A stretch of 55,540 bases of DNA from an uncultured Eubacteriales bacterium (GTDB lineage: Bacteria > Bacillota > Clostridia > Christensenellales > CAG-138), in assembly GCA_902765005.1 (NCBI GenBank), contig CACWYB010000024.1:1-55540 (forward strand), in the 5' to 3' direction. How positions within the stretch are numbered: the stretch's first letter is position 1; every line of letters begins with the position of its first letter. The notes under the pieces were generated by a model. The model was not told the origin of the DNA and searched no databases. It saw nothing but the letters and a program-made list of their open reading frames with translations. Positions 21,605 to 38,498 of this stretch are shown here, one piece after another. A program made the position numbers and the translations under genes.

Positions 21605-21624
21605 GGGCGTTTGATCCTGTGCTT

Positions 21625-21715
21625 GCCGCTTTTTCCTTTCGGTGAAAAGCAAAAGCGGCGGAAAAAGAAAAGCTGAGAAGAAAAGAGGGAGGCGGTTTGA
21701 CCCCTCCTTCTTTTT
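21625..21715. repeat. bipartite intergenic repeat, module A only (copy 1), with terminator
   Basis: Hairpin A spans 21625-21659 (arms GCCGCTTTT and AAAAGCGGC). It is followed by a second stem AAAAGAGGGAGG / CCTCCTTCTTTT with a T-run at 21681-21715 that should terminate pckA. Confidence 0.65.
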
Positions 21716-21752
21716 CCGTTTTTTGGGCGGCCTTCCTTCCGACTGGGTGGTA

Positions 21753-21781
21753 TTGCGCGGGGGAAGGGTTTATGGTATACT
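21753..21781 (+). promoter_or_regulatory. promoter of the MBOAT operon
   Basis: TTGCGC, exact 17-base spacer, TATACT, 45 bases before the first ATG. Confidence 0.55.
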
Positions 21782-21826
21782 AACCTGTCGCAATATAGCG
21801 GAAAATACGCCTAAAGGGGCGAAACG

Positions 21827-23245
21827 ATGGTCTTTTCCTCCACAACCTTTTTGTTTCTGTTTTTGCCGGCCCTGCTGCTGCTCTACTTCTGCCGCAGGGA
21901 CATTCGCTGGCGCAATGGGGTGCTGCTCCTCTTCTCCCTGATCTTCTACAGCTTCGGGGAGCCCGTGTGGGTGTTGGGCATGATCGGCGTCACGCTGATC
22001 AACTATTTCGTGGCCCTGAGGATCCATAGGACCAAGAAGAAGCGGCCCCGCAAGCTCCTGCTGGCGGCGGGGGTGATCTGCTCCCTGGCGCTGCTGGTCT
22101 ACTTCAAGTATTCCTCCTTCTTCCTGAACACGGTCTATGCCCTCCTGGGCCTTGACCGGGTGGCCCCGGAGCGGCATCTGCCCATCGGCATCTCCTTCTA
22201 CACCTTTCAGGTGCTGACCTACACCGTGGACGTGTACCGGAAGAAGGCCAAGCCCCAGACCAACCCCCTCAGGACCCTGCTCTATATCTCCTGCTTCCCC
22301 CAGCTCATCGCCGGGCCCATCGTTCAGTATACGGACGTGGCGGAGGCCCTCTCCCAGCGCAAAACCACGCCCACGGACTTCTTCCGGGGCATGCAGCGGT
22401 TCGTGCTGGGCCTGGGGAAGAAGGTGCTGCTGGCAAACCTGTGCGGGGAGATGCTGGAGGCCACGGCCCTGGGGGGCACGGGGGCGCCGCTTTCCCTCCT
22501 GGGCAGCTGGCTTTCCGCGGCCCTGTACACCATGCAGCTATACTTCGATTTCTCCGCCTACTCCGACATGGCCATCGGCCTGGGGCGGGTGTTCGGCTTT
22601 GCCTATAAGGAGAACTTCGACCATCCCTATCTCTCCGCCAGCATCACCGAGTTCTGGCGGCGGTGGCACATCAGCCTTTCCTCCTTCTTCCGGGACTATG
22701 TCTACATCCCCCTGGGCGGCAACCGGCGGGGCACCGGGCGAACGATTCTGAACCTGGCCATCGTGTGGAGCCTGACGGGCCTCTGGCACGGGGCCAGCTG
22801 GAACTTTGTGCTCTGGGGGGTCTACTACTTTGCCCTGCTGGTGCTGGAGCGGTTCGTGCTGGAGGGGGCGCTGAACCGGGTGCCCGTGGCCCTGCGCCAT
22901 ATCCTCACGCTCCTGCTGGTGACCGTGGGCTGGGTGATCTTCTACTACACGGATTTTGCCGCCATGACCGAGCACCTGAAGGCCCTCATCGGCTTGGGGG
23001 GCGGGGGCCTGGTGGACGAAAAGCTCCTGGCGGTGTTGAAGCAGTACACGGCCCTGCCGCTGATCATGGCCCTCTGCTGCCTGCCCCTGCAGCGGTGGCT
23101 CAAGGGGCTGTTCTCCCGGGGGCAAAAGGGGCTCTCCCTGTGGGGGGAGGTCCTGGGGGCGGCGGCCCTCACCGGGATCTTCCTGCTCTCCCTGCTGTTT
23201 TTGATGGGGCAGACCTACAACCCCTTCATCTACTTTAGATTCTGA
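21827..23245 (+). CDS. MBOAT-family membrane O-acyltransferase (AlgI/DltB/PatA-like)
   Basis: 472 residues, a multi-spanning membrane protein (about 9-11 hydrophobic segments from residue 5 on). MBOAT landmarks are YTVDVYR, QFPQ-like CFPQLIAGPIVQY, FDFSAYSDMAIG, EFWRRWHISLSSFFRDYVYIPLGG and the catalytic histidine in SLTGLWHGASWNFVLWG. Members move acetyl or acyl groups across the membrane onto polysaccharide or teichoic acid. The next gene is a DHHW/AlgX-like partner, so surface polysaccharide acetylation is likely. ATG with AAAGGGG upstream; the next gene starts eight bases after the stop. Confidence 0.92.
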   Translation: MVFSSTTFLFLFLPALLLLYFCRRDIRWRNGVLLLFSLIFYSFGEPVWVLGMIGVTLINYFVALRIHRTKKKRPRKLLLAAGVICSLALLVYFKYSSFFLNTVYALLGLDRVAPERHLPIGISFYTFQVLTYTVDVYRKKAKPQTNPLRTLLYISCFPQLIAGPIVQYTDVAEALSQRKTTPTDFFRGMQRFVLGLGKKVLLANLCGEMLEATALGGTGAPLSLLGSWLSAALYTMQLYFDFSAYSDMAIGLGRVFGFAYKENFDHPYLSASITEFWRRWHISLSSFFRDYVYIPLGGNRRGTGRTILNLAIVWSLTGLWHGASWNFVLWGVYYFALLVLERFVLEGALNRVPVALRHILTLLLVTVGWVIFYYTDFAAMTEHLKALIGLGGGGLVDEKLLAVLKQYTALPLIMALCCLPLQRWLKGLFSRGQKGLSLWGEVLGAAALTGIFLLSLLFLMGQTYNPFIYFRF

Positions 23246-23253
23246 GGCGGCCT

Positions 23254-24702
23254 ATGAAGAAAAAGATTCCCTTCGTAACCGCATACTGGTGGTGCATGAT
23301 CCTGTTCCTGCTGGGGATGCTGTCCCTGTTCCTGGGCAACAGGGAGGGGGGCGTGTCCGAAACGGAGAACAGGACCCTCCAGGCGCTGCCCAGGTTTTCA
23401 CTTTCCGCCTGGCTGGACGGCTCCTTTGCCGAAGGCCTGGAAGGGTACCTGTCCGACCAGATGCCCGGCCGGGACACCATCCTGCAAGGGTCTGCCCGTA
23501 TTCTGGGCCTCTTTGACGCGGCCACGGACCAAGAGCTAATTTTGGACACGGGCATGATCGAGGAGCTGGACGAGATGGCCGGCGGCACGGAGGAGGAAGA
23601 GCTCCTGCCCGAAGCGACGCAGACGGCCCCTCCCGCCACCTTCACCCCGGCGCCCCTGGGCTTAACCATCGAAGCCAGGGTCGAGGCCACTCCGGCCCCC
23701 GGGGCCACCCTGCCCCCCGAGATGAAAGCCACCGCCACGCCTTTGCCCACGGCCACCCCCCGGGAGGTGGACCCCCAGGTGGCGGACACCTCCATCGTGC
23801 GTAGGTTCGCCCTCATTCGGGCGGACGGCTCCCTTTCCACCCAGTTCCAGTTCGGAAAGAGCGCCATCGAAAACACGGCCAAGGCCCTGAACCTGTATCG
23901 GGACGCGGTGCCGGCGGACGGCAGCGTGGTGTTCACCTACATCCCCTACTCCCAGGACGCCAACATCTGGCTGCTGAACCCGGAGAAGTATACGGGCTGG
24001 ATCAGCGACGTGGAGCCCACCCTCCAGGCCAACGTGAAGGACGGGGTGTATGTGTTCTCCACGGTGAACGAGCTGTGCGCCCACATGCAGGCAGGGGAGG
24101 CCTGCTACTTTAAGACCGACCACCACTGGGCGGGCCTGGGGGCCTTCTATGTCCAGCGGCTCATGATGCGGACCTTCGGCGTGCCCTCCGCCGCCTATGA
24201 GGACTTCGCCTACACGGTCCATGAAGATTTTGCCGGGTCCATCACCGCGGAGGCCCGGTCCCTGGCGGGGAAGAAGAGCCTGGTGGACCGGCTGGAGGTG
24301 CCCACGCCCCTGGCGCCGGCCCGGGCCTTTGTGTATCGGAATCTGAACCAGCTGGTGAAGGAGGTCCGGTACATGGAGCCGGAGCGGAAGGTCTACGCCG
24401 CCTTCCTGGGCGGCACCCATTCCCCCTTCTATGTGGCCCAGACGGGCTTTCACACCGGGCGCAACGCCCTGGTGATCTGCGACTCCTTCGGCCTGGCCTT
24501 CGTGGCCTACGCCGCCCCCTACTATGATCACATCTGCCTGGCGGATCTGAGGGAGACCAACAGCTTTGTCACCGGCGGCGGGGCGAGCCTGAGGGAGTAT
24601 ATCCAGGAGTACGACATCGACGACGTGTATTTCATCGTGTCCCGGGGCTGCGGCATCAACTCGGCCTACATGCAGCGGACCGTGGTGAAGTATTTGGGGT
24701 GA
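23254..24702 (+). CDS. DHHW / AlgX-AlgJ-like SGNH-type protein, partner of MBOAT
   Basis: 482 residues with an N-terminal membrane anchor (about 8-27) and a Thr/Pro-rich stretch at about 110-175 that looks like a flexible linker. The signature FKTDHHWAGLGAF (about 288-300) is the DHHW motif, and ICDSFGLAF (about 409-417) gives the SGNH serine. Related proteins accept the acyl group exported by MBOAT and place it on extracellular glycan. It sits eight bases after the MBOAT gene and four before the RCC1-repeat gene, in one operon. Confidence 0.85.
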   Translation: MKKKIPFVTAYWWCMILFLLGMLSLFLGNREGGVSETENRTLQALPRFSLSAWLDGSFAEGLEGYLSDQMPGRDTILQGSARILGLFDAATDQELILDTGMIEELDEMAGGTEEEELLPEATQTAPPATFTPAPLGLTIEARVEATPAPGATLPPEMKATATPLPTATPREVDPQVADTSIVRRFALIRADGSLSTQFQFGKSAIENTAKALNLYRDAVPADGSVVFTYIPYSQDANIWLLNPEKYTGWISDVEPTLQANVKDGVYVFSTVNELCAHMQAGEACYFKTDHHWAGLGAFYVQRLMMRTFGVPSAAYEDFAYTVHEDFAGSITAEARSLAGKKSLVDRLEVPTPLAPARAFVYRNLNQLVKEVRYMEPERKVYAAFLGGTHSPFYVAQTGFHTGRNALVICDSFGLAFVAYAAPYYDHICLADLRETNSFVTGGGASLREYIQEYDIDDVYFIVSRGCGINSAYMQRTVVKYLG

Positions 24703-24706
24703 GCCT

Positions 24707-26170
24707 ATGAGCAGGAAGAAAAAACGTCCCTTCGGAAAGGCCTTCGCCCGCCGGGCCATCTTCTTTTCCACGGTGATCATGGCGGTGCTGGTGGCGGCGG
24801 GGCTGATCCTCTACGGCCAGCGGGAGCGCATCCTCTCCAAGCGGGCGGAGCGGGCTGCGGCCCGGGGGGATTATGAAAAGGCCATCTCCAGCCTGGAGGC
24901 CCTGGAAACGGGCACGGAGGGGGAGCAGGCGCTCCTTGCCTACCGCTATGCCCTGGCGGAGCAGGCCCTGGCGGCGGGGGACGCGGCCCGGGCCGAAACC
25001 CTGTTCACCCAGCTGGGAGACTATGCTGACAGCCGCACCAAGATCCTGGCCTGCCGGTACCTGGCGGCGGAGCAGGCCCTGGAAGCCGGGCGGCTGGAGG
25101 AGGCCAAGGACGCCTTCTATGCCCTCTCAGGCTATGCCGACGCCCTGGAACGGTACGACGGCTGCCGCTACGCCATCGCGGAACAGACAGCGCTGACCGA
25201 TCCGGCGGCAGGTTTTGAGCTCTTCTGGGCCCTGGGCGGGTATTCCGATGCCAAGGACAGGGCCGTGGCCCTGGCCAAACAGGTCACCGGGGAGGCGGAC
25301 GAGACCTTCGCCGTGAACCGGATGCTGGGGGTGTCGGAGGAGCAGGTGGAGCAGATGAAAACCCTCCAATCCATTCGGGCGGGGCTGCCCCAGGGGAAGC
25401 TGGCCGTGGGGTTCTACCACACCGTGGGCCTGAAGGCGGACGGCACCGTTCTGGCTGTGGGCCGGAACGAGGAGGGGCAGTGCAGCGTGGACGGCTGGAC
25501 CGGCATCCGGGCGGTGGCCTGCGGGGCCTACCACACCGTGGGTCTGAGGGGCGATGGCACGGTGGTGGCCGTGGGCCGGAACGAGGAAGGCCAATGCGAA
25601 GTTAGCGGCTGGACCGGCGTGGTGGCCGTGGCCTGTTCGGATTATAACACCCTGGCCCTGCTCAGCGACGGCACCGTGATCAGCGCCGGATATCAGCCCT
25701 ACGCGGAGCTGGCCGGCTGGCGGGACATCGTGAGCATCGAGGGCGGCAGTTACGGGGCCGTGGGCATCGGCGCCGACGGCCGGGTCTATTGCTCCCATGC
25801 CTCCCTGCGCAGCGAGAGCCTGGCGGGGGCGGTGGCCGCGGATGTGTCCACCGGCTACTGCGTGGCTTTGAAGGAGGACGGGACCGTGGTCCACACCGCG
25901 CTGGAGCTCCCCTGGGAGAACGTGGTGGCCCTGTCCGCTTCCAGCACAGGGGTCCTGGCGCTGAACGATCAGGGGCAGGTCCTGTGCCACTGGTTCCGCA
26001 GCCGGGACGCGGTGGACTTTTCGGACGTGACCGGGGCGGTGGCCCTGGCGGCGGGGGGCACCCATTCGGCGGTGCTGCTCTCTGACGGGACCGTGATCGC
26101 CCGGGGCAGCGGCGAAGCCGGGGAATGCGACACCGGCGGCTGGAAGCTGGGCGAAACGAAAGGGGAATAA
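24707..26170 (+). CDS. membrane-anchored protein with helical repeats and RCC1 repeats
   Basis: 487 residues. A transmembrane helix (about 18-38) is followed by three TPR-like helical repeats, each ending in a GDYADSR / SGYADALER / GGYSDAKDR type turn (about 60-185). The C-terminal half is a beta-propeller-like set of RCC1 repeats: units such as HTVGLKADGTVLAVGRNEEGQC recur about every 40 residues up to the end. RCC1 repeats bind proteins or surfaces; the role here is unknown. TTGGGGTGAG serves as ribosome site. Being third in the MBOAT-DHHW operon suggests a part in cell-surface assembly or adhesion. Confidence 0.8.
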   Translation: MSRKKKRPFGKAFARRAIFFSTVIMAVLVAAGLILYGQRERILSKRAERAAARGDYEKAISSLEALETGTEGEQALLAYRYALAEQALAAGDAARAETLFTQLGDYADSRTKILACRYLAAEQALEAGRLEEAKDAFYALSGYADALERYDGCRYAIAEQTALTDPAAGFELFWALGGYSDAKDRAVALAKQVTGEADETFAVNRMLGVSEEQVEQMKTLQSIRAGLPQGKLAVGFYHTVGLKADGTVLAVGRNEEGQCSVDGWTGIRAVACGAYHTVGLRGDGTVVAVGRNEEGQCEVSGWTGVVAVACSDYNTLALLSDGTVISAGYQPYAELAGWRDIVSIEGGSYGAVGIGADGRVYCSHASLRSESLAGAVAADVSTGYCVALKEDGTVVHTALELPWENVVALSASSTGVLALNDQGQVLCHWFRSRDAVDFSDVTGAVALAAGGTHSAVLLSDGTVIARGSGEAGECDTGGWKLGETKGE

Positions 26171-26182
26171 GGGAAATACACA

Positions 26183-26226
26183 AAAGGGCCCTGCGCCGTG
26201 CGCGCGGGGCTCTTTGTTATTTTTGG
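26183..26226 (+). terminator. terminator after the MBOAT operon
   Basis: Imperfect GC-rich stem AAAGGGCCCTGCGC - CGT - GCGCGCGGGGCTCTTT followed by GTTATTTTT. Confidence 0.65.
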
Positions 26227-26297
26227 CAGAATGCATAAATAATGTATAGAAACAATTAAAACAACGAATTTACTGAAAATAAATTTATAAAAATACG

Positions 26298-26326
26298 TTG
26301 ACAAGGAATAGAAATTCGTGTATACT
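26298..26326 (+). promoter_or_regulatory. promoter of the amino-acid ABC transporter
   Basis: TTGACA, exact 17-base spacer, TATACT; near-consensus. The leader is about 28 bases. The AT-rich stretch at 26228-26297 may act as an UP element. Confidence 0.8.
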
Positions 26327-26359
26327 ACGGGGCAACGAACAAAAACGGAGGAACAAAAC

Positions 26360-27205
26360 ATGAAAAAACTGATCGTTTGGGTGTTGGCGGCGGCCATGGT
26401 GCTGTGTGGGGTCGCCTGCCAGAAGAAGGAGGAAAAGAAGGTGCTGACCGTGGCCATGTCGCCGGACTTTGCGCCCATGGAGTTTGTGGACACCAGCAAG
26501 ACCGGGCAGGACCAGTTTGTGGGGTTCGACGTGACCTTGGCCAACTATCTGGCCCAGGAGCTGGGCATGGAGCTGGAACTGAAGCCCATGAGCTTTGACG
26601 CCTGCCAGACGGCGGTGCAGCTGGGGTCCGTGGATATGTCCATCTCCGGCTTCTCCTGGAAGGCGGACCGGGCGGAGAACTTCCTGCTGTCCGACTACTA
26701 TATCGCCGGCGACAATGAAACGGAGCAGTCCGTCATCACCACCAAGGCCAAGGAGAACACCATCACGGAGGCCAAGGGCTTTTCGGGCATGAAGGTGGGC
26801 GCCCAGGCCGCCTCCCTGCAGGAGCAGCTGGTGAAGGAGGCCCTGGTGCCTGAAGGGGCGGAGCTGGTGGTGTACAAGAGCATCGACGATGCGGTGCTGG
26901 CCCTGCAGACCGGGAAGATCGACGCCCTGGCCGTGGCCCATGGGAATGGGGAGGCCATCATCAGCAACAACCCGGATATCGCCTTCACGGGCTACGATTT
27001 TGACGTGGACCCCAAGTATGAGAACAACGTGATCCTGCTGAACAAGAACAGCACCGAGCTGCTGGAGAAGGTGAACGCGGCCTTGGCCAAGGCCCTGGCG
27101 GCGAACCTGTACGACGGCTGGTATGAGGACGCCAAGGCCCTGGCAGGCATCGAGACCGCCGAGGAAGTGAGCTACGACGACGAGGGCCAGGCGCCCACGG
27201 AGTGA
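26360..27205 (+). CDS. polar amino-acid ABC transporter, substrate-binding lipoprotein
   Basis: 281 residues from the ATG at 26360, chosen for GGAGG eight bases upstream and a proper signal: MKKLIVWVLAAAMVLCGVAC with lipobox cysteine C20. The mature part follows the family 3 binding-protein plan (VAMSPDFAPMEFVD ... GFDVTLANYLAQELGMELELKPM ... IDALAVAHGNGEAI). It captures a polar amino acid outside the membrane and hands it to the permease at 27390. The 184-base gap to the permease is filled with a repeat element, which is unusual inside such an operon. Confidence 0.92.
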   Translation: MKKLIVWVLAAAMVLCGVACQKKEEKKVLTVAMSPDFAPMEFVDTSKTGQDQFVGFDVTLANYLAQELGMELELKPMSFDACQTAVQLGSVDMSISGFSWKADRAENFLLSDYYIAGDNETEQSVITTKAKENTITEAKGFSGMKVGAQAASLQEQLVKEALVPEGAELVVYKSIDDAVLALQTGKIDALAVAHGNGEAIISNNPDIAFTGYDFDVDPKYENNVILLNKNSTELLEKVNAALAKALAANLYDGWYEDAKALAGIETAEEVSYDDEGQAPTE

Positions 27206-27225
27206 TTGGATAGTATTCATAGCAC

Positions 27226-27363
27226 GCACCCTTTCTTGAAAGAAAGGGTGCATCCCCAAAGAACTTTACCTGATCGGCGGCGCCTTCGCTGCGGTCCATG
27301 ACATCTTTGTCAAGTTTCTCTTTTTCCGCCGCTTTTTCTCTTTGTAGAAAGAGAAAAAGCGGC
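27226..27363 (-). repeat. bipartite intergenic hairpin repeat, copy 2 (B then A)
   Basis: Hairpin B is perfect: GCACCCTTTCTT - GA - AAGAAAGGGTGC (27226-27251). Then the box CCCCAAAGAACTTTACC (reverse of GGTAAAGTTCTTTGGGG). Hairpin A is a perfect 16-bp stem GCCGCTTTTTCTCTTT - GTAG - AAAGAGAAAAAGCGGC (27328-27363). It lies between the binding-protein and permease genes. Confidence 0.8.
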
Positions 27364-27389
27364 AATAAAAACCCAAAGAAAGCATACTC

Positions 27390-28073: not shown

Positions 28074-28803
28074 CACCGTTTTGATCGAAACGAAAGCCCT
28101 CACCAAGAGCTTCGGCTCCGTGAACGTGCTCAAGGGCGTGGACGTGCAGGTGCACCAAGGGGAGGCCCTGGCCATCATCGGCCCCTCCGGCGGCGGAAAG
28201 AGTACCTTCCTCCGGTGCCTCAACCTGCTGGAGCAGCCCGACGGTGGGGAGGTGATCTTCGAGGGGCAGAAGATCAACCAGAAGGGCGTGGACGTGGACG
28301 CCTACCGGCAGAAGATGGGCATGGTGTTCCAGCATTTCAACGTCTTCCCCCATATGACCGTTCAGGAGAACATCACCATGGCCCCGGTGCTTTTGAAGAA
28401 GAAGACCAAGGCCGAGGCGGAGAAGCAGGCCGTTTCCCTGCTGAGTCGGGTGGGGCTCCTGGACAAAAAGGACGAGTACCCCCGCAAGCTCTCCGGCGGG
28501 CAGAAGCAGCGGCTGGCCATCGTGCGGGCCCTGGCCATGGAGCCGGACGTGATGCTCTTTGACGAGCCCACCTCCGCCCTGGACCCGGAGATGGTGGGGG
28601 AGGTGCTCTCCGTTATCCGCTCCCTGGTGAAGCAGGGCATGACCACCGTCATCGTCACCCACGAGATGGGGTTCGCCCGGGAGGTCAGCGATCGCATCCT
28701 CTTCATGGCCGACGGGACCATCGTGGAGCAGGGCGCCCCCGGGGCGCTCCTGGATCACCCCAAGGAGAAGCGCACCGTTGAGTTTTTGAGTAAAGTGTTA
28801 TAA
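28066..28803 (+). CDS. amino-acid ABC transporter ATP-binding protein (GlnQ type)
   Basis: 245 residues. Walker A is GPSGGGKST (about 40-48), the Q-loop [10 protein letters not shown], the ABC signature [17 protein letters not shown] and Walker [13 protein letters not shown] (about 161-172) are complete, with the H-loop in [10 protein letters not shown]. The start is GTG at 28066 with GGAGG upstream, overlapping the permease end. It powers uptake by the binding protein and permease. Confidence 0.95.
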
Positions 28804-28820
28804 GAAATGATTTATATTTT

Positions 28821-28952
28821 GCGCCCTTTCTTGTAAGAAAGGGCGCCCCCAAAGAACTTTAGGAATACTAATGGGCTTAGGCTGGGATATCTTGATCCCC
28901 TCCTGAGCTTTTTTTCCGTCGCTTTTTCTTTTCACTGAAAAGAAAAAGCGGC
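28821..28952 (-). repeat. bipartite intergenic hairpin repeat, copy 3 (B then A)
   Basis: Hairpin B: GCGCCCTTTCTT - GT - AAGAAAGGGCGC (28821-28846), perfect. The AAAGAACTTTA box follows. TCCTGAGCTTTTTTT at about 28901 is the middle part, and hairpin A (28918-28952) has arms GTCGCTTTTTCTTTTC and GAAAAGAAAAAGCGGC with one G-T pair. Confidence 0.8.
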
Positions 28953-28992
28953 AACAAAAAACAACCTAAAAAAGTATATTCTTCCCCCTGCG

Positions 28993-29022
28993 TTGACAGG
29001 GATATTGGGGCCTTGCTACAAT
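28993..29022 (+). promoter_or_regulatory. promoter of the tryptophanase-family gene
   Basis: TTGACA, 18-base spacer, TACAAT, 85 bases before the chosen ATG. No tna-type leader peptide with a Trp codon could be supported in the leader. Confidence 0.65.
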
Positions 29023-29107
29023 TTATTTAGTCCGATGCTGTCCGCCAGCCGAGCTTTCGGTGACCGGGGTATCTCTGAATCTATCTGAATTGGAGGCACA
29101 AAACAGT

Positions 29108-30730: not shown

Positions 30731-30750
30731 GGTATCGTCATCTTAATCTT

Positions 30751-30888
30751 GCCGCTTTTTCTTTTCGGTGAAAAAGAAAAAGTGGCGCAAAAAGAAAAGC
30801 TCAGGAAGTCTAACGGGATAGATTTCCTGAGCTTTTTATATGGTTAAGTTCTTTTTGGGCGCCTTTTTCTTGTCTAAGAAAAAGGTGC
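30751..30888 (+). repeat. bipartite intergenic hairpin repeat, copy 4 (A, terminator, B)
   Basis: Hairpin A 30751-30786 (GCCGCTTTTTCTTTTC arm); a perfect terminator GCTCAGGAA ... TTCCTGAGC then TTTTT (30799-30837); the TTAAGTTCTTTTTGGG box; hairpin B 30859-30888 (GCGCCTTTTTCTT / AAGAAAAAGGTGC). It separates two convergent genes. Confidence 0.8.
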
Positions 30889-30909
30889 GAAGCTTCCAAT
30901 ATGTTCCAC

Positions 30910-31641
30910 TTAAATGCTTCTTAGCCAGGCCTCGATGAACCGGCTCTCGTACGCGTGGGCCAGGGCGTTGGGGTGGGTGTTCCGAGGCGGGTCCACGGCG
31001 AAGGTGCGGGTGCGGAAGTCACGGACGGACTTTTCGATGGCCGGGTTGGTGGAGCGGCCCATGACCGGGCAGCGCTCGTCCCCGTTCAGGTCCAGGTAGG
31101 GGATGCCCCACTTGCGGGCCAGAGCGATCTGGGCCTGCCGGTATTCGTCCGTTTCGCAGCCGTTGGAGATGAGCATGCCTATATGGGCAAAGGGATGGTG
31201 CTCCATGAGATAGGGGAGGACCATGTTCCAGGCGCCGCAGAAGGTGTCGATGGACGTGTCGTCCAAAGCGCCCAGGCGGATGACCCCCTTCTTCACCTCT
31301 CCGTCGTCTCCGGAGGAACGGGGGCGGTGGTGGCTGTCGTTGATGCCAAAGTAGAGGGTGATGTAGTCCGCCGCCGGGTCGATGGTCCTGTAGAGGCCGC
31401 CGGAGAAGGTGTTGAGGAACACCTCGTCGGAGGGGGTAGCCATGGTCATGCCGCCCACGGCCAGATGCTGGATGCGCATGCCGTTGCGGTCCGCGATCAG
31501 GTAATCGTAGGTGCGGCGCTTGCCCGCAAAGGGACCCTCTGTGAACAGGGGCTCGCCCTCCGGGGCGCCGGAGAAGTTGCCGTCGGTGAAGCTGTCGCCG
31601 CAGACGGCCCAGAGTTTGCCGGTGAGGATGTTTTCGGTCAT
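30910..31641 (-). CDS. SGNH/GDSL-family hydrolase
   Basis: 243 residues from the ATG at 31641, chosen because AAAGGGG lies upstream and MTENILTGKLWAVCGDSFTDG gives the normal domain start. Block I is GDSFTDG (serine nucleophile), block III is FGINDSHH, and block V is THPNALAH near the end (catalytic His). There is no signal peptide, so it should be cytoplasmic. Family members remove acyl groups from sugars, lipids or peptides; the substrate is unknown. Confidence 0.82.
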   Translation of the reverse strand: MTENILTGKLWAVCGDSFTDGNFSGAPEGEPLFTEGPFAGKRRTYDYLIADRNGMRIQHLAVGGMTMATPSDEVFLNTFSGGLYRTIDPAADYITLYFGINDSHHRPRSSGDDGEVKKGVIRLGALDDTSIDTFCGAWNMVLPYLMEHHPFAHIGMLISNGCETDEYRQAQIALARKWGIPYLDLNGDERCPVMGRSTNPAIEKSVRDFRTRTFAVDPPRNTHPNALAHAYESRFIEAWLRSI

Positions 31642-31670
31642 AGGTGGTCCCCTTTCCGTGGGCTGAGGAC

Positions 31671-31699
31671 AGTATACGCCCATTTGACCGATCTGTCCA
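31671..31699 (-). promoter_or_regulatory. promoter of the SGNH hydrolase gene
   Basis: Minus strand TGGACA, exact 17-base spacer, TATACT, 30 bases before the ATG. Confidence 0.55.
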
Positions 31700-31722
31700 T
31701 GGGGTCGCGGCCGGGAAATCTA

Positions 31723-31751
31723 TTGTGCAATCGGAATAAACATGGTATGAT
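31723..31751 (+). promoter_or_regulatory. promoter of the FAD oxidoreductase gene
   Basis: TTGTGC, exact 17-base spacer, TATGAT. It is divergent from, and 24 bases away from, the SGNH hydrolase promoter. Confidence 0.6.
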
Positions 31752-31785
31752 TATTTGTTAAGTCCACCCACAGGAGGTGCATTCC

Positions 31786-33137
31786 ATGGAAAAACAATAT
31801 GACGTGATCATCATCGGCGGCGGCCCCGGCGGCATCTATTCCGCCTACGAGCTCAAGAAGCTGGCGCCCGAAAAGCGGGTGGCCGTGTTCGAGGAGGGAC
31901 ACCCGCTGGAGAAGCGGCGCTGCCCCATCGACGGGGAGAAGATCAAGGCCTGCATCCGCTGCAAGACCTGCTCCATCATGTCCGGCTTCGGCGGCGCGGG
32001 GGCCTTCTCCGACGGCAAGTACAACATCACCAACGACTTCGGCGGCACCCTCTATGAGCACATCGGCAAGCGGGAAGCCCTGGAGCTGATGAAATATGTG
32101 GATTCCGTCAACATGGCCTACGGCGGGGAAGGGACCAAGCTCTATTCCACCGCCGGGACCCGGTTCAAGAAGCTGTGCATCGAGAACAAACTGAACCTGC
32201 TGGACGCCTCCGTCCGGCACCTGGGCACGGACATCAACTATGTGGTGCTGGAGAACCTGTTCGCCTACCTGAAGGATTCGGTGGACTTCTTCTTTGACAC
32301 GCCGGTGGCGGAGGTGACCGTGGAGGCGGGCGGCTACGCCGTGCACACCGGCCGGGGCGACTACGGCTGCGACAGGCTCATCATCTCCGTGGGCCGCAGC
32401 GGCAGCAAGTGGATGGAGGGGATCTGCAAGAAGCTTGACATCCCCACCCACAGCAACCGGGTGGATCTGGGGGTCCGGGTGGAGCTGCCGGCGGTGGTCT
32501 TTTCCCACCTGACCGACGAGCTCTATGAGAGCAAGATCGTGTACCGGACGGAGAAGTTTGAGGACAACGTGCGCACCTTCTGCATGAACCCCAACGGCAT
32601 CGTGGTCACGGAGAACACCAACGGCATCGTCACCGTCAACGGCCACAGCTACGAGCGGGAGGACATGCACACCTGGTGAGCAAGCACTTCACCGAGCCCT
32701 TCAACGACAGCAACCTCTACGGCGAGAGCATCGCCCGGCTCTCCAACATGCTGGCCGGCGGCGTCATGGTCCAGCGATTCGGGGACCTGGTCCGGGGCCG
32801 CAGGAGCACCGTGAAGCGGATCGAGAAGGGGCTGGTGACGCCCACCCTGGCGGCCACCCCCGGGGACCTTTCCCTGGTGCTGCCCAAGCGGATTTTGGAC
32901 GGGATCATCGAGATGATCTACGCCCTGGACAAGATCGCGCCGGGCACCGCCAACGACGACACCCTGCTCTACGGCGTGGAGGTGAAGTTCTACAACATGG
33001 AGGTGGACCTGGACGAAAACCTCATGACTCGGTATCCGGGCCTGTACATCATCGGCGACGGCAGCGGCATCACCCACAGCCTGTCCCACGCCTCCGCGTC
33101 CGGGGTATTCGTGGCCAGAAGGATAGCCGAAGAATAA
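31786..33137 (+). pseudogene. FAD-dependent NAD(P)-type oxidoreductase, frame broken by a short deletion
   Basis: The gene starts at 31786 (AGGAGG eight bases upstream) with a clear FAD-binding Rossmann motif GGGPGGIYSAYELKKL. Frame 1 runs to 32679 and ends VNGHSYEREDMHTW-stop. From about 32676 the protein goes on in another frame as LVSKHFTEPFNDSNLYGESIARLSNMLAGG and ends with the second FAD motif GLYIIGDGSGITHSLSHASASG. In the family the two pieces are joined by a TxNTNFALLVS segment; the NTNFAL part is missing, which fits a deletion of about 22 bases at 32675. The full protein would be about 458 residues. Either a pseudogene or a sequence error. Confidence 0.8.
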
Positions 33138-33148
33138 CGGCTTTTCTT

Positions 33149-33287
33149 GCGACTTTTTTCTCTTCGGTGAAGAGAAAAAAGTCGCCCAAAAAAGAGAAGC
33201 TCAGGAAGAGAAATGGGGTTAGATGAAGAAAAAACGATTCTCTTCCTAAAGTTCTTTGGGTCTCACCTTTTCTTTCAAAAAGGTGAG
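33149..33287 (+). repeat. bipartite intergenic hairpin repeat, copy 5 (A then B)
   Basis: Hairpin A is a perfect 17-bp stem GCGACTTTTTTCTCTTC - GGT - GAAGAGAAAAAAGTCGC (33149-33185). The CTAAAGTTCTTTGGG box follows at 33246. Hairpin B is CTCACCTTTT / AAAAGGTGAG (33262-33287). The GAAGCTTTCAAT tail comes next. Confidence 0.8.
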
Positions 33288-33317
33288 GAAGCTTTCAATC
33301 TTTCCTTTAAAAGAAAC

Positions 33318-34277: not shown

Positions 34278-34332
34278 CCGCCGGAGCATCGATGCTTGGG
34301 CAGGGTTGGCTGCGTCGGTAAAGTTCTTTTGG

Positions 34333-34360
34333 GTCCCTTTTCTTGCAGAAGAAAAGGGAC
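34333..34360 (+). repeat. intergenic hairpin repeat, module B only (copy 6)
   Basis: Perfect stem GTCCCTTTTCTT - GCAG - AAGAAAAGGGAC. It is preceded by GGTAAAGTTCTTTTGGG and followed by GAGGCTTTCAATA, the conserved outer boxes of module B. It ends 39 bases before the galactanase ATG. Confidence 0.75.
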
Positions 34361-34399
34361 GAGGCTTTCAATAAAATCCTTGTAAGGCGGAGGAAAAAC

Positions 34400-36337
34400 A
34401 TGAAACGCATTGTGACCGTTGTGCTTGCCCTGGCCCTGCTGGTGGGCTGTGCCGCAGGCGGCAAGGTCGAAAGCAAGAAGGAGGCTCAGTCCGTGACAAG
34501 CGACACCCTATATGTACAGAAGGTGGAGGGCCTTCGGGACGATTTCATCCTGGGGGCGGATGTGTCCAGCCTTCTGGCCCAGGAAAACAGCGGCGTGGTC
34601 TACAGGGGCTTCGACGGCACGGAGCAGGACATGCTCAAAGTCCTGGCGGACAACGGCGTGAACTACATCCGGGTCCGGGTGTGGGTGGACCCCTTCGACA
34701 AGGACGGCCACGGCTACGGCGGCGGCAACTGCACCGCCCAGACCGCCGGCATCCTGGGCGCACGGGCGGCCCAATACGGCATGAAGCTGCTGGTGGATTT
34801 CCACTACTCCGATTTCTGGGCAGACCCGGCCAAGCAGCAGACCCCCAAGGCCTGGCAGGGGCTTTCCATCGACGAGAAGGCCCAGAAGGTGCAGGCCTAT
34901 ACCGCCGAGAGCCTGCAAACCATCCGGGACGCCGGGGCGGATATCGGCATGGTGCAGATCGGGAACGAGACCACCAAGGGCATCTGCGGAGAGATCGCCG
35001 TGCCCAAGATGTGCGCCATCTACCGGGCGGGGGCGGAGGCCGTTCGCGCCTTCGATGCCAGCATCCTCATCGCCGTCCACTTCACCAATCCGGAGGCGGG
35101 AAACTACTCGAAGCTGGCCTATATGCTCTCCAGCAACCAGGTGGACTACGATGTGTTCGCCACCTCCTACTACCCCTACTGGCACGGCACCCTGGAGAAT
35201 CTGAAGGAGCAGCTATCCACCGTGGCGGAGAAGTATGATAAAAAAGTTATGGTGGCGGAGACCCAGTGGGCCTACACCGCGGAGGATGGGGACAACAGCG
35301 CCAACTCCATCGGCGAGGAGCTCAAGTACGAAAAGCCCTACCCCTTCACCGTTCAGGGTCAGAGCCGGGAGCTGCGGGACGTGATCGACACCGTGGCCTC
35401 CCTGGAAAAGGGCGTGGGCGTGTTCTATTGGGAAGCGGGCTGGATCCCCGTGCCCGGCGCCGCCTATGAGGACCGGTTCCCCCTGTGGGAGGAGCACGGC
35501 AGCGGCTGGGCCAGCAGCTTTGCGGCGGAATATGACCCGGACGATGCGGGCAAGTATTACGGCGGCAGCGCCTGCGACAACCAGGCCCTTTTCGATTTTG
35601 AGGGGAACCCGCTGGAATCCCTGAAGACCTTTGCCCTGGTGAGGACCGGGAACGAGATCGCCCCCCATGCGGACGCCCTGGACAGCGCGGTGGTCACCGT
35701 GCGGGTGGGGGAGAGCTTTGCCCTGCCCGAAACCGTGTCCGCCATCTTCACCGACGGGTCCCGGGCCGAGGCCGCCGTCACGTGGGACGCGGCCGAAGAG
35801 GCCCAGGTGAGCACGGACGCGGTGGGCAAGTTTGTGGTCCATGGCCAGGGGGATGGGCAGGCGGCCCTGTGCTATGTGAACGTGGTGGAGGCCAACTACC
35901 TGGAGAACTACAGCTTTGAGGGCGAGGATCGGTCCATGTGGCAGATCATCCCCCTTGCCGACGGGGAGCAGGCTGATTTTCAGATCAAGGCCACCGACGC
36001 TTTCTCCGGGGAGGCATCTCTCCACTTCTGGAACGGCACCGCCGTGGAATTCAAATGCGAGCAGACCGTGAAGGACCTGCCCGAGGGCACCTGGCGCGTC
36101 AGCGTGCAGGGGCAGGGCGGCGACGTGGGGGACGACGCGGACATCCAGCTCTACGTTATCTCCGACGGCCAAACCTACACCGCGCCCATGACCTTCCATG
36201 GCTGGGTCAACTGGCAGGAGGCCCTCATCGAAAACATCCCCTGCCAGAGCCGTGAGATCACCGTGGGCGTCTACGTCCGCTGCCAGGGCGGCGGCTGGGG
36301 CACCTTCGACGATTTCCTGTTGAATCCGGAGAAATAA
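34400..36337 (+). CDS. ganB: secreted GH53 endo-beta-1,4-galactanase with Ig-like and C-terminal beta-sandwich (CBM61-like) domains
   Basis: 645 residues. Lipoprotein signal MKRIVTVVLALALLVGC (C17). The GH53 domain (about 45-385) has DVSSLLAQE, DNGVNYIRVRVWVDP, LVDFHYSDFWADP, the acid/base E190 in QIGNET and nucleophile E287 in MVAETQW. Residues about 430-500 form a bacterial Ig-like (Big_4) domain. The last 140 residues (NYSFEGEDRSMW ... GWGTFDDFLL) resemble a galactan-binding CBM61. It should cut pectic galactan outside the cell. GGAGG precedes the ATG. The GH2 beta-galactosidase at 47441-49810 could finish the products. Confidence 0.9.
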   Translation: MKRIVTVVLALALLVGCAAGGKVESKKEAQSVTSDTLYVQKVEGLRDDFILGADVSSLLAQENSGVVYRGFDGTEQDMLKVLADNGVNYIRVRVWVDPFDKDGHGYGGGNCTAQTAGILGARAAQYGMKLLVDFHYSDFWADPAKQQTPKAWQGLSIDEKAQKVQAYTAESLQTIRDAGADIGMVQIGNETTKGICGEIAVPKMCAIYRAGAEAVRAFDASILIAVHFTNPEAGNYSKLAYMLSSNQVDYDVFATSYYPYWHGTLENLKEQLSTVAEKYDKKVMVAETQWAYTAEDGDNSANSIGEELKYEKPYPFTVQGQSRELRDVIDTVASLEKGVGVFYWEAGWIPVPGAAYEDRFPLWEEHGSGWASSFAAEYDPDDAGKYYGGSACDNQALFDFEGNPLESLKTFALVRTGNEIAPHADALDSAVVTVRVGESFALPETVSAIFTDGSRAEAAVTWDAAEEAQVSTDAVGKFVVHGQGDGQAALCYVNVVEANYLENYSFEGEDRSMWQIIPLADGEQADFQIKATDAFSGEASLHFWNGTAVEFKCEQTVKDLPEGTWRVSVQGQGGDVGDDADIQLYVISDGQTYTAPMTFHGWVNWQEALIENIPCQSREITVGVYVRCQGGGWGTFDDFLLNPEK

Positions 36338-36352
36338 AAAAGGCTTTCCTTT

Positions 36353-36440
36353 GCCGCTTTTTCTCTTTGGGCTAAAGAGAAAAAACGGCGGAAAAAGAGA
36401 AATGCAGGAAGGGATAGAGGGGATCCCTTCCTGTGTTTTT
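36353..36440 (+). repeat. intergenic repeat module A (copy 7) plus terminator
   Basis: Hairpin A at 36353-36389 (GCCGCTTTTTCTCTTT / AAAGAGAAAAAACGGC). It is followed by a perfect 11-bp terminator stem CAGGAAGGGAT ... ATCCCTTCCTG and GTTTTT (36405-36440). Confidence 0.75.
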
Positions 36441-36514
36441 GGGTTCGTAAGATTTTGGGTGGGCTTTCCTTTGGATGGGTGCGGGGTAGACATGAAAAAA
36501 TGAGAAAATACCCC

Positions 36515-36546
36515 TTGACACATGATACTATGCGTAGTATAGTATC
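36515..36546 (+). promoter_or_regulatory. padR promoter with overlapping dyad operator
   Basis: TTGACA (36515-36520), exact 17-base spacer, TATAGT (36538-36543). The dyads ATACTA - TGCG - TAGTAT (36525-36540) and GATACTA...TAGTATC (36524-36546) fill the spacer and -10 box. PadR-family repressors commonly bind such sites at their own promoter. Confidence 0.75.
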
Positions 36547-36569
36547 ACGCGAAGGGAGGCATGTGACGT

Positions 36570-36884
36570 ATGGATGTTCAAATGAAGCGCGGGATGCTGG
36601 ACGTGTGCGTCCTGGCCGCCATACAGTCGGAGGATTCCTATGGGTATCAGATCATCAAGGATGTGAAGCCCTATGTGGAGATCTCCGAATCCACCCTCTA
36701 CCCCATTTTGCGGCGGCTGGAGGAGGGGCGGCTGCTGACGGTCCGCTCCGTGGAGCACAACGGGCGGCTGCGAAAGTATTACCACATCACCGATGCCGGC
36801 CGGGCCCGGATCGAAGAATTCAAGGGGGACTGGAAGGAGATGGAATCCATCTACCGGTTCATAATTAGGGAGGGAGACAAATGA
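36570..36884 (+). CDS. padR: PadR-family transcriptional regulator
   Basis: 104 residues. The pattern KRGMLDVCVLAAIQSEDSYGYQIIKDVKPYVEISESTLYPILRRLEEGRLL is the PadR winged-helix domain; RKYYHITDAGRARIEEF is the wing. With no long C-terminal domain it belongs to the short subfamily 2. GAAGGGAGG lies 10 bases before the ATG. It overlaps the DUF1700 gene by ATGA and should repress its own operon through the dyad over the promoter. Confidence 0.93.
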   Translation: MDVQMKRGMLDVCVLAAIQSEDSYGYQIIKDVKPYVEISESTLYPILRRLEEGRLLTVRSVEHNGRLRKYYHITDAGRARIEEFKGDWKEMESIYRFIIREGDK

Positions 36885-37492
36885 GCAGGGACGCATTCAT
36901 CGGGGAGCTGCGCCACAGGATGGCGGGCCTGCCCCAGCAGACCGTGGAGCGCACGGTGGAGTATTACAGCGAGCTGATCGCCGATTCCGTGGAGGATGGG
37001 CTCAGCGAGGAGGAGGCCGTTGCCCGGCTGGGTTCCCTGGACGAGATCGTGGCCAATGTGGTCAAGGATACGCCCCTCACCCAGATCGTGCAAACCCGGG
37101 TCCAGGAGAAGAAGGCCAAGGGCGTGTCCGGCTGGGTGATCCTGCTGCTGGTGCTGGGGGCGCCGGTGTGGCTGCCGCTGCTCATCGCGGTGCTGGCGGT
37201 CATCTTCGCTTTGTACATCGCCCTGTGGGCGGTGGTCGTCAGCCTGTGGGCGGCGGTGGCGGCGGTGATCCTCGCCGGTATCGCGGCCATCGTGGGCGGC
37301 ATCGTGGAGCTGTGCCGGCTGCACCTTGCGCAAGGGCTGGTGCTGCTGGGCGGCGGGCTCATGTGCCTGGGGCTGTGCGTGGTGGCGTTTCTGCTGATGA
37401 AGCTCATCACCCTGGGCACGGTGAAGCTGTGCAAGCTCCTGTGGACGGGAGTCAAATCACTGTTTGTGGGTAAAGGGGGAAAGAAGGCATGA
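36881..37492 (+). CDS. DUF1700 membrane protein
   Basis: 203 residues. The N-terminal 70 residues (FIGELRHRMAGLPQQTVERTVEYYSELIADSVEDGLSEEEAVARLG) are the DUF1700 HAAS-type helical domain; four to five hydrophobic segments follow (about 78-185). The PadR-DUF1700-DUF4097 trio is a common Firmicutes operon thought to sense envelope stress; the exact job is not known. It overlaps both neighbours by four bases. Confidence 0.88.
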   Translation: MSRDAFIGELRHRMAGLPQQTVERTVEYYSELIADSVEDGLSEEEAVARLGSLDEIVANVVKDTPLTQIVQTRVQEKKAKGVSGWVILLLVLGAPVWLPLLIAVLAVIFALYIALWAVVVSLWAAVAAVILAGIAAIVGGIVELCRLHLAQGLVLLGGGLMCLGLCVVAFLLMKLITLGTVKLCKLLWTGVKSLFVGKGGKKA

Positions 37493-38337
37493 AAAAAACT
37501 ATGATCGCCCTGCTTATCGCCGTGCTGGTGGTGGCCATTGGCGCGGGGCTGTGCTTCGCAGGGCTCAGCACCGTGGGATTCAAATTCAGGAACCTGGACA
37601 GGACGGAGTATAGGAAGCACACCTACACCCTGGCGGAGCCGTTTGATCGGATCGACATCAAGGGCTACACCGCGGATGTAGACATCGTGGCGGCCCAGGG
37701 GGACACAAGGGAAGTGGTCGTCTTTGAGAGCGAGCGGGAGAAGTACACCGTCAGCGTGGAGGACGGCTGTCTCACCATCCGGCCCGTGGACGAGGGGAAG
37801 AGCCGCTGGTTCCTCTTCGGCTTCCACTTCAAGGGCCCTCGGATCACCCTGACCGTGCCCCAGGGAGTCTATGAGCTGCTGCAGGTGGTGCTGGACACCG
37901 GGGATCTGGCGGTGAGCGACCTGGCTGTGGAAACGGTGTTGGTGAATCTGGACACGGGCCGGGCCGAGATCAACGGCCTTCAAACGACGAGCATCGCGGC
38001 CCACAGCGACACCGGTGACCTGCGCCTTAGCGACATGACCCCCGCTCAGGTGGAACTGAGCGTGGACACGGGCAAGATCGAGCTGGTGAACCTGATCTGC
38101 TCCGGGGACATCCGCTGCGAAAGCTCCACCGGCGATATCCGGCTCACGGACGTGGACGGGGCGAACCTCTATCTTTCCGCCTCCACCGGGGACATCACCG
38201 GCACCGTTCGGACGCAGAAGGTGTTTTCTGCCGAGAGCTCCACGGGGAAGGTGTCCGTGCCTGACACCGCCGCCGGCGGCCGCTGCGAGGCCGAGACCAG
38301 CACGGGGGACATTCGGCTGAGCATCAGCGGAGAGTAA
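37489..38337 (+). CDS. DUF4097 beta-helix-like envelope protein
   Basis: 282 residues with an N-terminal membrane anchor (about 4-24) and then a run of short beta repeats: VVLDTGDLAVSDL, NLDTGRAEINGL, HSDTGDLRLSDM, SVDTGKIELVNL, ESSTGDIRLTDV, SASTGDITGTV. The recurring (D/S)TGxx(x)(L/I) unit every 18-22 residues is typical of DUF4097 (putative adhesin/LiaG-like) proteins. It is last in the PadR operon and is likely displayed outside the membrane. Confidence 0.88.
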   Translation: MKKTMIALLIAVLVVAIGAGLCFAGLSTVGFKFRNLDRTEYRKHTYTLAEPFDRIDIKGYTADVDIVAAQGDTREVVVFESEREKYTVSVEDGCLTIRPVDEGKSRWFLFGFHFKGPRITLTVPQGVYELLQVVLDTGDLAVSDLAVETVLVNLDTGRAEINGLQTTSIAAHSDTGDLRLSDMTPAQVELSVDTGKIELVNLICSGDIRCESSTGDIRLTDVDGANLYLSASTGDITGTVRTQKVFSAESSTGKVSVPDTAAGGRCEAETSTGDIRLSISGE

Positions 38338-38351
38338 GTAACCTTTGTTTT

Positions 38352-38488
38352 GCCGCTTTTTCTTTTCAGAAGAAAAGAAAAAGCGGCGGAAAAAGAAAAG
38401 CTTAGGAAGGGGGCATAGCCCTGTTTCCTAAGCTTTTTTGTATGGGTAAAGTTCTTTTGGGTGCACCTTTTCTTTCAAGAAAAGGTGC
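38352..38488 (+). repeat. bipartite intergenic hairpin repeat, copy 8 (A, terminator, B)
   Basis: Hairpin A is a perfect 16-bp stem GCCGCTTTTTCTTTTC - AGAA - GAAAAGAAAAAGCGGC. Terminator AAGCTTAGGAA ... TTCCTAAGCTT with T-run (38398-38439). Then GGTAAAGTTCTTTTGGG and hairpin B GCACCTTTTCTT - TC - AAGAAAAGGTGC (38463-38488). It separates convergent genes. Confidence 0.8.
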
Positions 38489-38498
38489 GGACTTTCTG

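Follow-up and report, generated by a model that had tools for sequence, protein, structure and literature searches.

A REP/BIME-like extragenic element of Clostridia with mirror-boxed, possibly triplex-capable hairpins around a length-fixed core

A dispersed extragenic element in the genome of an uncultured clostridial gut bacterium usually consists of two inward-facing units, each being a hairpin with a pyrimidine arm (Y2) and a purine arm (R2) next to a putative third-strand box that mirrors Y2. On one strand, such a unit would read as Hoogsteen segment, Y and R (class IV), and on the other as Y, R and reverse-Hoogsteen segment (class II). The boxes enclose a core of ~50 nt, often a hairpin preceded by an A-tract and followed by a U-tract. 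The element most likely acts at transcript 3' ends, where the core might serve as a two-way terminator and the triplex-capable hairpins might halt polymerase or exonuclease, while in-register exchange of ends and cores between elements would drive the evolution of the copies. The sequences themselves show the architecture, the coupling of box and stem, the fixed spacing, the location and the replacement of whole cores, whereas triplex formation, a terminating or protecting role and gene conversion as the route of exchange are inferred. We regard this reading, in which a REP/BIME-like element at 3' ends combines triplex-capable ends with a terminator-like core and evolves by between-copy exchange, as an even bet.

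The window (the whole analysed stretch of 55,540 nt) holds eight copies (Table 1). An earlier note on this DNA had described their hairpins as a bipartite family of modules A and B, and all eight loci were confirmed from sequence and inverted repeats and recovered by a covariance model on the window contig. The module-A seed TTGCCGCTTTTTCTTT has 7 matches with up to 2 mismatches (0.03 expected); the module-B box is weak by itself: where 2.5 matches are expected at this tolerance of 2 mismatches, 8 occur, a count reached in 1 of 100 shuffles. Two features go beyond the earlier description, namely a central hairpin in many copies and a covarying box beside each hairpin. When the window was scanned with Rfam 15, tRNA alone scored above the gathering threshold and the element fitted no family, the best sub-threshold match being Phe_leader (37.8 bits vs 55 needed).

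Table 1. Copies of the element in the window and their parts.
Feature	Position	Strand	Description	Model score (bits)
Copy 1	21607..21791	+	A hairpin from 21625, purine box, central hairpin; degenerate B half	68.9
Copy 2, full A-B	27203..27381	-	A hairpin 27328-27363, core, B box 27252-27268, B hairpin 27226-27251	128.6
Copy 2, B unit	27226-27268	-	T3 box with T3 stem	
Copy 3, full A-B	28798..28970	-	A hairpin ~28918-28952 imperfect, box altered; B hairpin 28821-28846	139.6
Copy 4, full A-B	30733..30912	+	A hairpin 30751-30786; B hairpin 30859-30888 (T5 box, T5 stem)	134.6
Copy 4, central hairpin	30795-30836	+	Terminator-like	
Copy 5, full A-B	33131..33311	+	A hairpin 33149-33185 (GCGAC, T6 type, exact mirror box)	132.7
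Copy 5, B hairpin	33262-33287	+	T3 box, T4 stem; exception to mirror rule	
Copy 6, B unit alone	34319..34365	+	Box and hairpin 34333-34360	35.8
Copy 7	36335..36519	+	A hairpin 36353-36389, one arm mismatch; box not exact mirror of scored arm	70.1
Copy 7, inner parts	36335..36519	+	Central hairpin 36400-36438; degenerate B half	
Copy 8, full A-B	38334..38511	+	A hairpin 38352-38387, core, B hairpin 38462-38488 (T4 box, T4 stem)	157.3

The paired arm changes reported earlier are real. In 25 copies (3 from the window and 22 from elsewhere), 97.2% of cells pair and changes on both sides occur in 14 of 27 stem pairs; the covariation score of 0.287 compares with 0.120 in shuffles (reached by 0 of 500) and a slid maximum of 0.064, relatedness remaining in these controls. 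Unit pairing, spacing and covariation support both the view that selection keeps the stem as a structure and the interpretation of A-B order on one strand and B-A order on the other as one element in two orientations. Arm-to-arm conversion, also suggested, is insufficient as the sole cause: the mirror boxes beside the hairpins ruled it out in that role, as it cannot turn an adjoining box into the mirror image of an arm.

The box beside each hairpin is the mirror image of the pyrimidine arm, i.e., the parallel (Hoogsteen) match of the purine arm. An exact mirror box over 9-13 nt is present in 151 of 170 A units (shuffled mean ~70.5, maximum 86), the T-run of the box equals that of the stem in 91 of 95 B units (shuffled 45.5, maximum 63), and triplet agreement across 42 distinct box/arm combinations reaches 0.944 (0.765 shuffled, maximum 0.847), all in permutation tests that count related copies and ignore relatedness, so that the values overstate independence. 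Exceptions to the rule are 19 A units and 4 B units, one of them within the window (33262). In 16 cells with disagreeing arms, the box tracks the purine arm 13 times, the pyrimidine arm twice and neither once. About ten block types exist, and all obey the mirror rule. Where the A units at the two ends of an element differ in type (five elements), 10/10 boxes match their own hairpin and 0/10 that of the other end, which rejects matching across the element. The stem type differs between species at eight orthologous sites; with a single exception, which has one T extra, every member there has a box that exactly matches its own purine arm. A direct-repeat (Watson-Crick competition) model of the box was rejected as well, with an exact direct repeat in 0/170 A units.

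Hairpin and mirror box together have the layout of a potential intrastrand triplex (PIT) of class II/IV, and the first loop measures 3-4 nt in 164/170 A units. That box and hairpin change in concert hints that evolution has kept three-stranded structures. What counts against a triplex is that protonated-C triples are weak close to neutral pH and that basal stem pairs compete with the third strand. RNA triple helices of the MALAT1/ENE type occur in eukaryotic and viral RNAs, where a U-rich strand lies parallel to an A-rich strand and runs of U.A-U are interrupted by a C+.G-C triple. The element would share the parallel U-rich strand and the C+.G-C triple that breaks the U.A-U runs, whereas its strand topology differs and it is known here as DNA sequence.

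A bacterial counterpart is TMECO/BoxC of enterobacteria, which, as described in PMC4666352, likewise shows Y-R-R along one strand with H-Y-R along its complement, a first loop of 3-4 nt, palindromic pairs and hypervariable loci. The 3-nt turn of TMECO is also matched if two linker bases are counted as third strand; otherwise the second loop of our element is 7 nt long and beyond the limits of the PIT search definition given there (consecutive H-Y-R or Y-R-RH, stem 6-15 nt, loops 1-6 nt; PMC4666352). In contrast to TMECO, which is G/C-rich with a 9 nt consensus stem and is reported in that source from proteobacteria, the element is A/T-rich, has stems of 11-13 nt, belongs to a Clostridia family and combines box-stem covariation with always-inward pairs around a length-fixed core. 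TMECO, which has the PIT layout, forms a triplex in vitro, but neither an in vivo footprint nor terminator activity was seen in the experiments described in PMC4666352.

The elements lie ~11 or ~19 nt downstream of stop codons, and 95 of 103 are flanked by a gene 3' end on one side or both, with gene ends taken from a simple ORF caller. This location agrees with the earlier suggestion of a structured regulatory or processing element, which thus stays a candidate. Cores are more structured than shuffles (median -12.3 vs -6.3 kcal/mol; the reversed-sequence control is uninformative because reversal keeps helices). Terminator-like cores make up 47% and 51% of 112 in the two directions, compared with 26% and 30% of shuffles, and about half of the cores are not terminator-like. 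In folding, the A-tract of the core can base-pair to the U-tract. A canonical terminator precedes at least two elements (L155:4462 and L030:11565), as judged by eye.

Might the elements be plain bidirectional intrinsic terminators, in which the core hairpin with its A- and U-tracts does the work, the outer hairpins are extra stems and the mirror pattern arises from a need for tracts of matched strength? The location after stops and between convergent genes would fit, as would the richness of the boxes in U (their first 8 nt contain 5-7 T in 112/112 elements from A to B and 5-6 T in 112/112 from B to A) and a relative that, by eye, holds a plain GC hairpin with a T-run in place of the element at site L010. 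Tract strength, however, needs neither C positions nor T-run lengths that mirror the local stem and does not demand a core of 49-52 nt; boxes of mixed elements match their own hairpin rather than the opposite box, and merely about half of the cores qualify. We therefore hold this explanation to be unlikely. Bidirectional terminators as treated in PMC1852404 do resemble the element in their A-tract/T-tract-flanked hairpin after stop codons and, for paired uptake signals, in the building of terminator hairpins from dispersed repeated units, whereas two extra outer hairpins with mirror boxes and a strict core length set the element apart.

In 96 of 97 A-B elements, the inward-facing boxes are separated by a core of 49-52 nt, and despite this near-constant length the core sequences are only 44% alike. 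Inward orientation also holds for 68 of 72 adjacent strand-assigned unit pairs (64 further pairs include a strand-unassigned unit), and spacing is 59-80 nt in 123 of 126 pairs. The element thus shows the extragenic palindromic units, alternating in orientation at regular spacing, that define a BIME. Binding of gyrase or IHF is a further trait of BIMEs.

At orthologous sites, replacement of the whole core is frequent and inversion never occurs, the element having the same orientation in 77 cases and the reverse in 0. Core identity was scored on 22 orthologous pairs of equal length, setting aside 23 further pairs that differ by 1-2 nt. Nine of the 22 reach an identity of 0.94 or more, another nine do not exceed 0.58, and the other four range over 0.66-0.73. 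This split favours replacement over the gradual change of a hypermutating core, if not for every pair. Gene conversion may be the route of exchange. Donors of most replaced cores were not found, and homogenisation within genomes was set aside as not significant, as cores are no more alike within than between genomes (p = 0.19; 102 of 112 elements genome-labelled), although one core family has 10 of its 13 members in the own genome.

Replacement of whole cores in register, like a fixed length with free sequence, could also reflect a DNA-level structure, with extruded cruciforms or H-DNA as a site of protein binding or recombination and the ~73 nt between hairpins, about seven helical turns, set by a protein complex. 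A second repeat has 14 of its 19 copies situated inside the hairpins, and triplex-motif loci are described as hypervariable in E. coli (PMC4666352), both in keeping with such a structure. The binding protein is only putative, though; helical phase alone would also tolerate a core that is shorter or longer by one turn, yet hardly any such cores exist; and the location after stop codons points to RNA. Of the explanations weighed here, this one appears the least probable, and it is improbable in absolute terms.

Copies confined to the window would have refuted the earlier note. Instead, the best 150 covariance-model matches scored fall at at least 125 distinct places in the MAG. Such high-copy extragenic palindromes, often in opposite-facing pairs and mostly after genes, between convergent or tandem ORFs, recall the GTAG and CGTC families of REP/BIME sequences as portrayed in PMC3733652 and PMC2817692, which differ from the element in that it has no GTAG/CGTC tag and no RAYT was found, and in its third-strand box and fixed-length core of free sequence. 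Near the stem base of 170 units, GTAG occurs 0 times, CGTC once and the reverse complements CTAC and GACG twice each. CGTC REPs are likewise reported without a RAYT (PMC3733652).

Copy number and inverted paired units would also be expected of a selfish element of REP/BIME or MITE type, whose hairpins and boxes are sites for a trans-acting transposase and whose box-stem coupling stems from co-inherited subfamilies recognised blockwise by the protein. The extragenic position, as in REPs (PMC3733652), two core families that recur in 33 and 13 of 102 elements, and sites without the element in relatives (18 of 165 comparisons) speak for it too. No mover emerged, however. A Pfam scan of ten window proteins gave no transposase family, and the Y1 transposase (PF01797) has 0 matches in the 77%-complete own genome and one copy each in 2 of 12 genus genomes (control genomes match in 5 of 14), which led us to reject a RAYT. 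Among the 35 own-genome elements compared, identity between copies at unrelated sites never exceeds 88%, so that movement in trans, as once suggested, gained no support. Moreover, orientation is never reversed among the 77 refilled or kept sites, and co-inheritance fails to explain why about ten block types all mirror or why mirrors in other letters exist in a second genus. A MITE would have terminal inverted repeats, a target-site duplication and a related transposon that mobilises it; here the element ends are inverted units, the element-less sites gave no definable target duplication, and one long element is a candidate at most. The selfish explanation thus seems unlikely to us.

An exact-pattern census finds the element in 12/12 genomes of its genus and in 0/29 outside it, which understates the range because, of 89 family genomes from other genera, the covariance model matches weakly in 19, five of which were inspected. 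A generic scan places a mirror box at 2 of 32 hairpins in 80 kb of unselected genus sequence and at 0 of 56 in 159 kb from the starts of contigs of 13 other genomes in the family; the element is therefore neither family-universal nor dense everywhere. Stretches L081-L175 were picked by an exact pattern of the A hairpin and are therefore biased towards the commonest type and towards element-holding sites. Our search of the open-access literature, with subscription papers and preprints outside its scope, found no paper on this element.

A wider claim, for which we see a chance slightly short of even, is that a class of bacterial 3'-end elements is set by a three-strand rule rather than by sequence: a hairpin with its mirror third strand, maintained by covariation of whole triplets both inside a genus and across genera, with inward pairs and an exchangeable core of fixed length. 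It would provide comparative-genomic evidence that bacteria are under selection for intrastrand triplexes, be they DNA or RNA, and would amount to a natural cassette system that swaps cores in register. TMECO is the one motif studied in detail in PMC4666352, and as it left no in vivo footprint there, a role of such motifs in living bacteria is still hypothetical. Since third strand and hairpin change together across about ten types, between species at orthologous sites and again in a second genus, the in vivo role of triplex motifs can now be addressed with sequence data and simple mutants; the fixed-length yet freely replaced core is a second puzzle that is clearly testable. Beyond the genus, stretches of G019 and G071 were chosen around model matches. 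A mirror box is present in 43 of 95 cases in G019, about half with a 1-2 nt linker and resembling low-complexity artefacts, and we relied on G071 instead. In the second genus, where the mirror rule holds with other letters, an exact mirror box accompanies 31 of 36 pyrimidine-arm hairpins, some with GG/CC in their cores, and 6/6 adjacent units face inward.

Each hairpin listed in the earlier note was found at its place when the region was read directly, and the main claim made there, that the arms differ between copies and stay paired, is upheld by an alignment of 25 copies, in which 97.2% of the cells pair and 14 of 27 pairs are doubly changed. The covariation score of these aligned copies is 0.287, compared with 0.120 after shuffling and at most 0.064 with slid partners. 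Read from A to B, the full element opens with a T-rich flank and the A hairpin (16-17 bp), followed after two bases by a purine box R1 (AAAAAGAAAAGC or a variant of it). Then come a core that is often a hairpin itself, a pyrimidine box (TTCTTTTGG or a variant of it), the B hairpin (11-13 bp in most cases) and a tail resembling GAAGCTTTCAATnnTTCC. The copies at 27226 and 28821 have the identical layout on the minus strand, in line with the previous reading of one element in two orientations.

Viewed on the strand that gives it a pyrimidine first arm, every hairpin has a pyrimidine box in front of it, and this box is the arm in reverse order (examples among further pairs are TTTTTCTTTTC with CTTTTCTTTTT, TTTTTCTCTTT with TTTCTCTTTTT, TTTTTTCTCTTC with CTTCTCTTTTTT and TTTTCTCTTC with CTTCTCTTTT). 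The mirror is exact in 151 of 170 A units, which were chosen because a pyrimidine box ending in a T-run lies two bases ahead of the stem, not for the mirror; randomly dealt boxes give a mean of 70.5 and a maximum of 86. None of the 170 carries the box as an exact direct repeat of the arm. In B units, the T-run of the box equals that of the stem in 91/95 (45.5 on average and 63 at most after shuffling). Four of the six A units scored in the window have an exact box; the A unit at 21625 was missed by the window box scan and is not among these six.

This overlap of a mirror repeat with its own inverted repeat is how an intrastrand triplex is arranged: the box would run parallel to the purine arm, placing T over A and either C or G over G. 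Several observations agree with the triplex reading. First, in cells where the arms disagree, the box sides 13 times with the purine arm, twice with the pyrimidine arm and once with neither, although these cells are partly orthologues and represent fewer independent events. Second, the mirror rule runs on through the two linker bases into the stem. With box and linker counted together, T lies over A in 1514/1525 cells, C or G over G in 536/551, G over T in 24/33 and C or T over C in 120/120, the linker counts resting on seven stem types. Of these, G is a tolerated third base over T-A, as are C and T over C-G. Third, in five elements with unlike A units at their ends, all 10 boxes fit their own hairpin and none fits the partner's. 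Finally, eight orthologous sites have unlike stem types in different species, and the box exactly fits its own purine arm in each member except L032:3997, which has a surplus T; in five other orthologue clusters compared, the only difference is one mutated or shortened arm.

Adjacent units up to 260 nt apart with both strands assigned (n = 72) face inward in 68 cases, are tandem in four and never face outward; 64 more pairs containing an unassigned unit lie outside this count. The hairpins are spaced 59-80 nt apart in 123/126 distinct two-hairpin elements. Of 97 A-B elements, 96 have a box-to-box core of 49-52 nt and one has a core of 48 nt; of 15 A-A' elements, 14 have 47-50 nt and one has 30 nt. 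The median identity of equal-length cores is 44%. From A to B, the median core folding energy is -12.3 kcal/mol versus -6.3 kcal/mol for shuffled cores, and 47% and 51% of cores are terminator-like in the two directions versus 26% and 30% of shuffles. A sole inward-facing pair 300-4500 nt apart in the scanned loci is possibly a long element, or a product of chance.

Coordinates of individual features (L numbers denote sequence stretches, G numbers genomes)
Feature	Location	Observation
A unit	window, 27328	exact box
A unit	window, 30786	exact box
A unit	window, 33185	exact box
A unit	window, 38387	exact box
A unit	window, 36389	no exact box
A unit	window, 28920	no exact box
Solute-binding protein gene	window, 26360-27202	
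FAD-dependent oxidoreductase	window, 31777-33137	two overlapping ORFs (300 and 153 aa)
Distant inward-facing pair	L075:10370-13831	3.4 kb
Extra sequence at lyase site	L076 (G002:C173)	about 1.8 kb
Copy in another genus	L198 (G101:C3:79479-79647)	109.5 bits
Second repeat (others exist)	L009:3907	
Second repeat	L010:2758	
Second repeat	L013:4033	
Second repeat	L044:5420	
Second repeat	L045:7320	
Second repeat	L074:14137	
Second repeat	L077:5336	
Second repeat	L077:5557	

A second repeat, some 120 bp long (GGGTGCGGAGCCGAGCGCTGCC...), lies inside hairpins in 14 of 19 copies, as judged by an upstream-context expression, and elsewhere in five. It may target extruded hairpins. Six of its loci gave no Rfam match at gathering.

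The family extends beyond the window, which forms contig 24 of a MAG of 2.38 Mb and 77% completeness. A covariance model of the 25 copies marks at least 125 distinct places in this genome, merged from the best 150 matches, and matches at E<=0.001 occur in 19/89 same-family genomes outside the genus, most of them weak. With up to two mismatches, the hairpin pattern is present in 12/12 genomes of the genus, counting this one, and in 0/29 other genomes tried. Among 84,980 species, the exact hairpin retrieves 95 stretches from 11 assemblies whose titles read uncultured Clostridiales, Clostridia or Oscillospiraceae, with goat rumen or sheep jejunum in two titles; RUG stands for rumen uncultured genome. 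One genus-type copy lies in a genome assigned to another genus (L198) and may reflect transfer or a misplaced contig.

Outside the genus, genome G071, which represents a second genus, has hairpins of other letters, e.g. GAAAAGAAAGAAG, and right ends with AAAAGGAAAG. Nevertheless, an exact mirror box with a linker of 5-6 nt accompanies 31 of its 36 pyrimidine-arm hairpins, among them two cases of TTTTCCTTT over AAAAGGAAA and one of CTTTCCTTT over GAAAGGAAA, and thus the rule outlives the sequence. Its adjacent units face inward in 6/6 cases, with a hairpin distance of 70 nt in one pair and 144-183 nt (about 144-151 or 181-183) in five. The wide pairs (L239, L242, L243, L247, L249) contain one or two added core hairpins like GCCATTTTGCCACGGACAGGTGGCAAAATGGC. 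Single mirrors, 16 and 17 nt long, occur in G019, where a different hairpin family (L222, L224, L225, L228, L229), with a CCCTTTT box, an 8-nt linker and a TTTTCCC arm, likewise obeys a mirror rule. The stretches from both genomes were chosen around model matches.

Orthologous sites reveal turnover. After the solute-binding protein gene, the window's element is kept in G001 and G006, different elements occur in G003 and G005, a B half in G004 and no element in G009. At the site preceding the beta-eliminating lyase gene, elements unlike the window's occur in G001, G005 and G006, and none occurs in G003, G004, G009 or G002. At this site, G002 has extra sequence where relatives have an element or a short gap, containing an ORF with repeated cysteine motifs and a helix-turn-helix-like gene. 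Across 165 non-redundant comparisons in the genus, the orthologous site holds two parsed units in 73, at least one in 74 and none in 18. Orientation is the same in 77 of 116 comparisons, reversed in none, partial in 32 and empty in seven. Core length differs by at most 2 nt in 61/61 parsed orthologous pairs. Among 22 equal-length core pairs, nine are >=0.94 identical, even with flanks 7-13% apart, nine are <=0.58 identical and four fall between. In L167 versus L014, the relative has one site's A end and core at the neighbouring site, fused to the latter's own B end. This turnover pattern is best explained by in-register exchange between copies; donors of most replaced cores were not found.

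Placement with a simple ORF caller in the own and genus loci left 103 of 117 elements outside predicted ORFs with genes within 400 nt on both sides. They lie between two 3' ends in 47 cases, a 3' and a 5' end in 48 and two 5' ends in eight, versus 118, 278 and 100 of 496 background gaps. Beside gene 3' ends, the median distance from hairpin start to stop codon is 11 nt for A (n = 74) and 19 nt for B (n = 80). We think that the element works at 3' ends, where the core would end transcription in both directions and the outer units, as triplex-capable hairpins, might stop polymerase or shield the RNA end. When an inward pair is transcribed either way, the last unit met is always in the pyrimidine sense, and PMC4666352 describes the pyrimidine class of intrastrand triplex, not the purine class, as possible in RNA. 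Against a role at 3' ends, the same paper gives TMECO, the enterobacterial potential intrastrand triplex motif, neither an in vivo footprint nor terminator activity; moreover, canonical terminators, judged by eye, precede two elements, and half of the cores are not terminator-like.

The element is arranged like a potential intrastrand triplex and like a BIME-type pair. It gave negative results for the REP tag and for RAYT, the REP-linked Y1 transposase, and no Rfam family matches it. Beside these elements, the FAD-dependent oxidoreductase in the window is seemingly split, which may reflect a frameshift, an assembly error or a real split.
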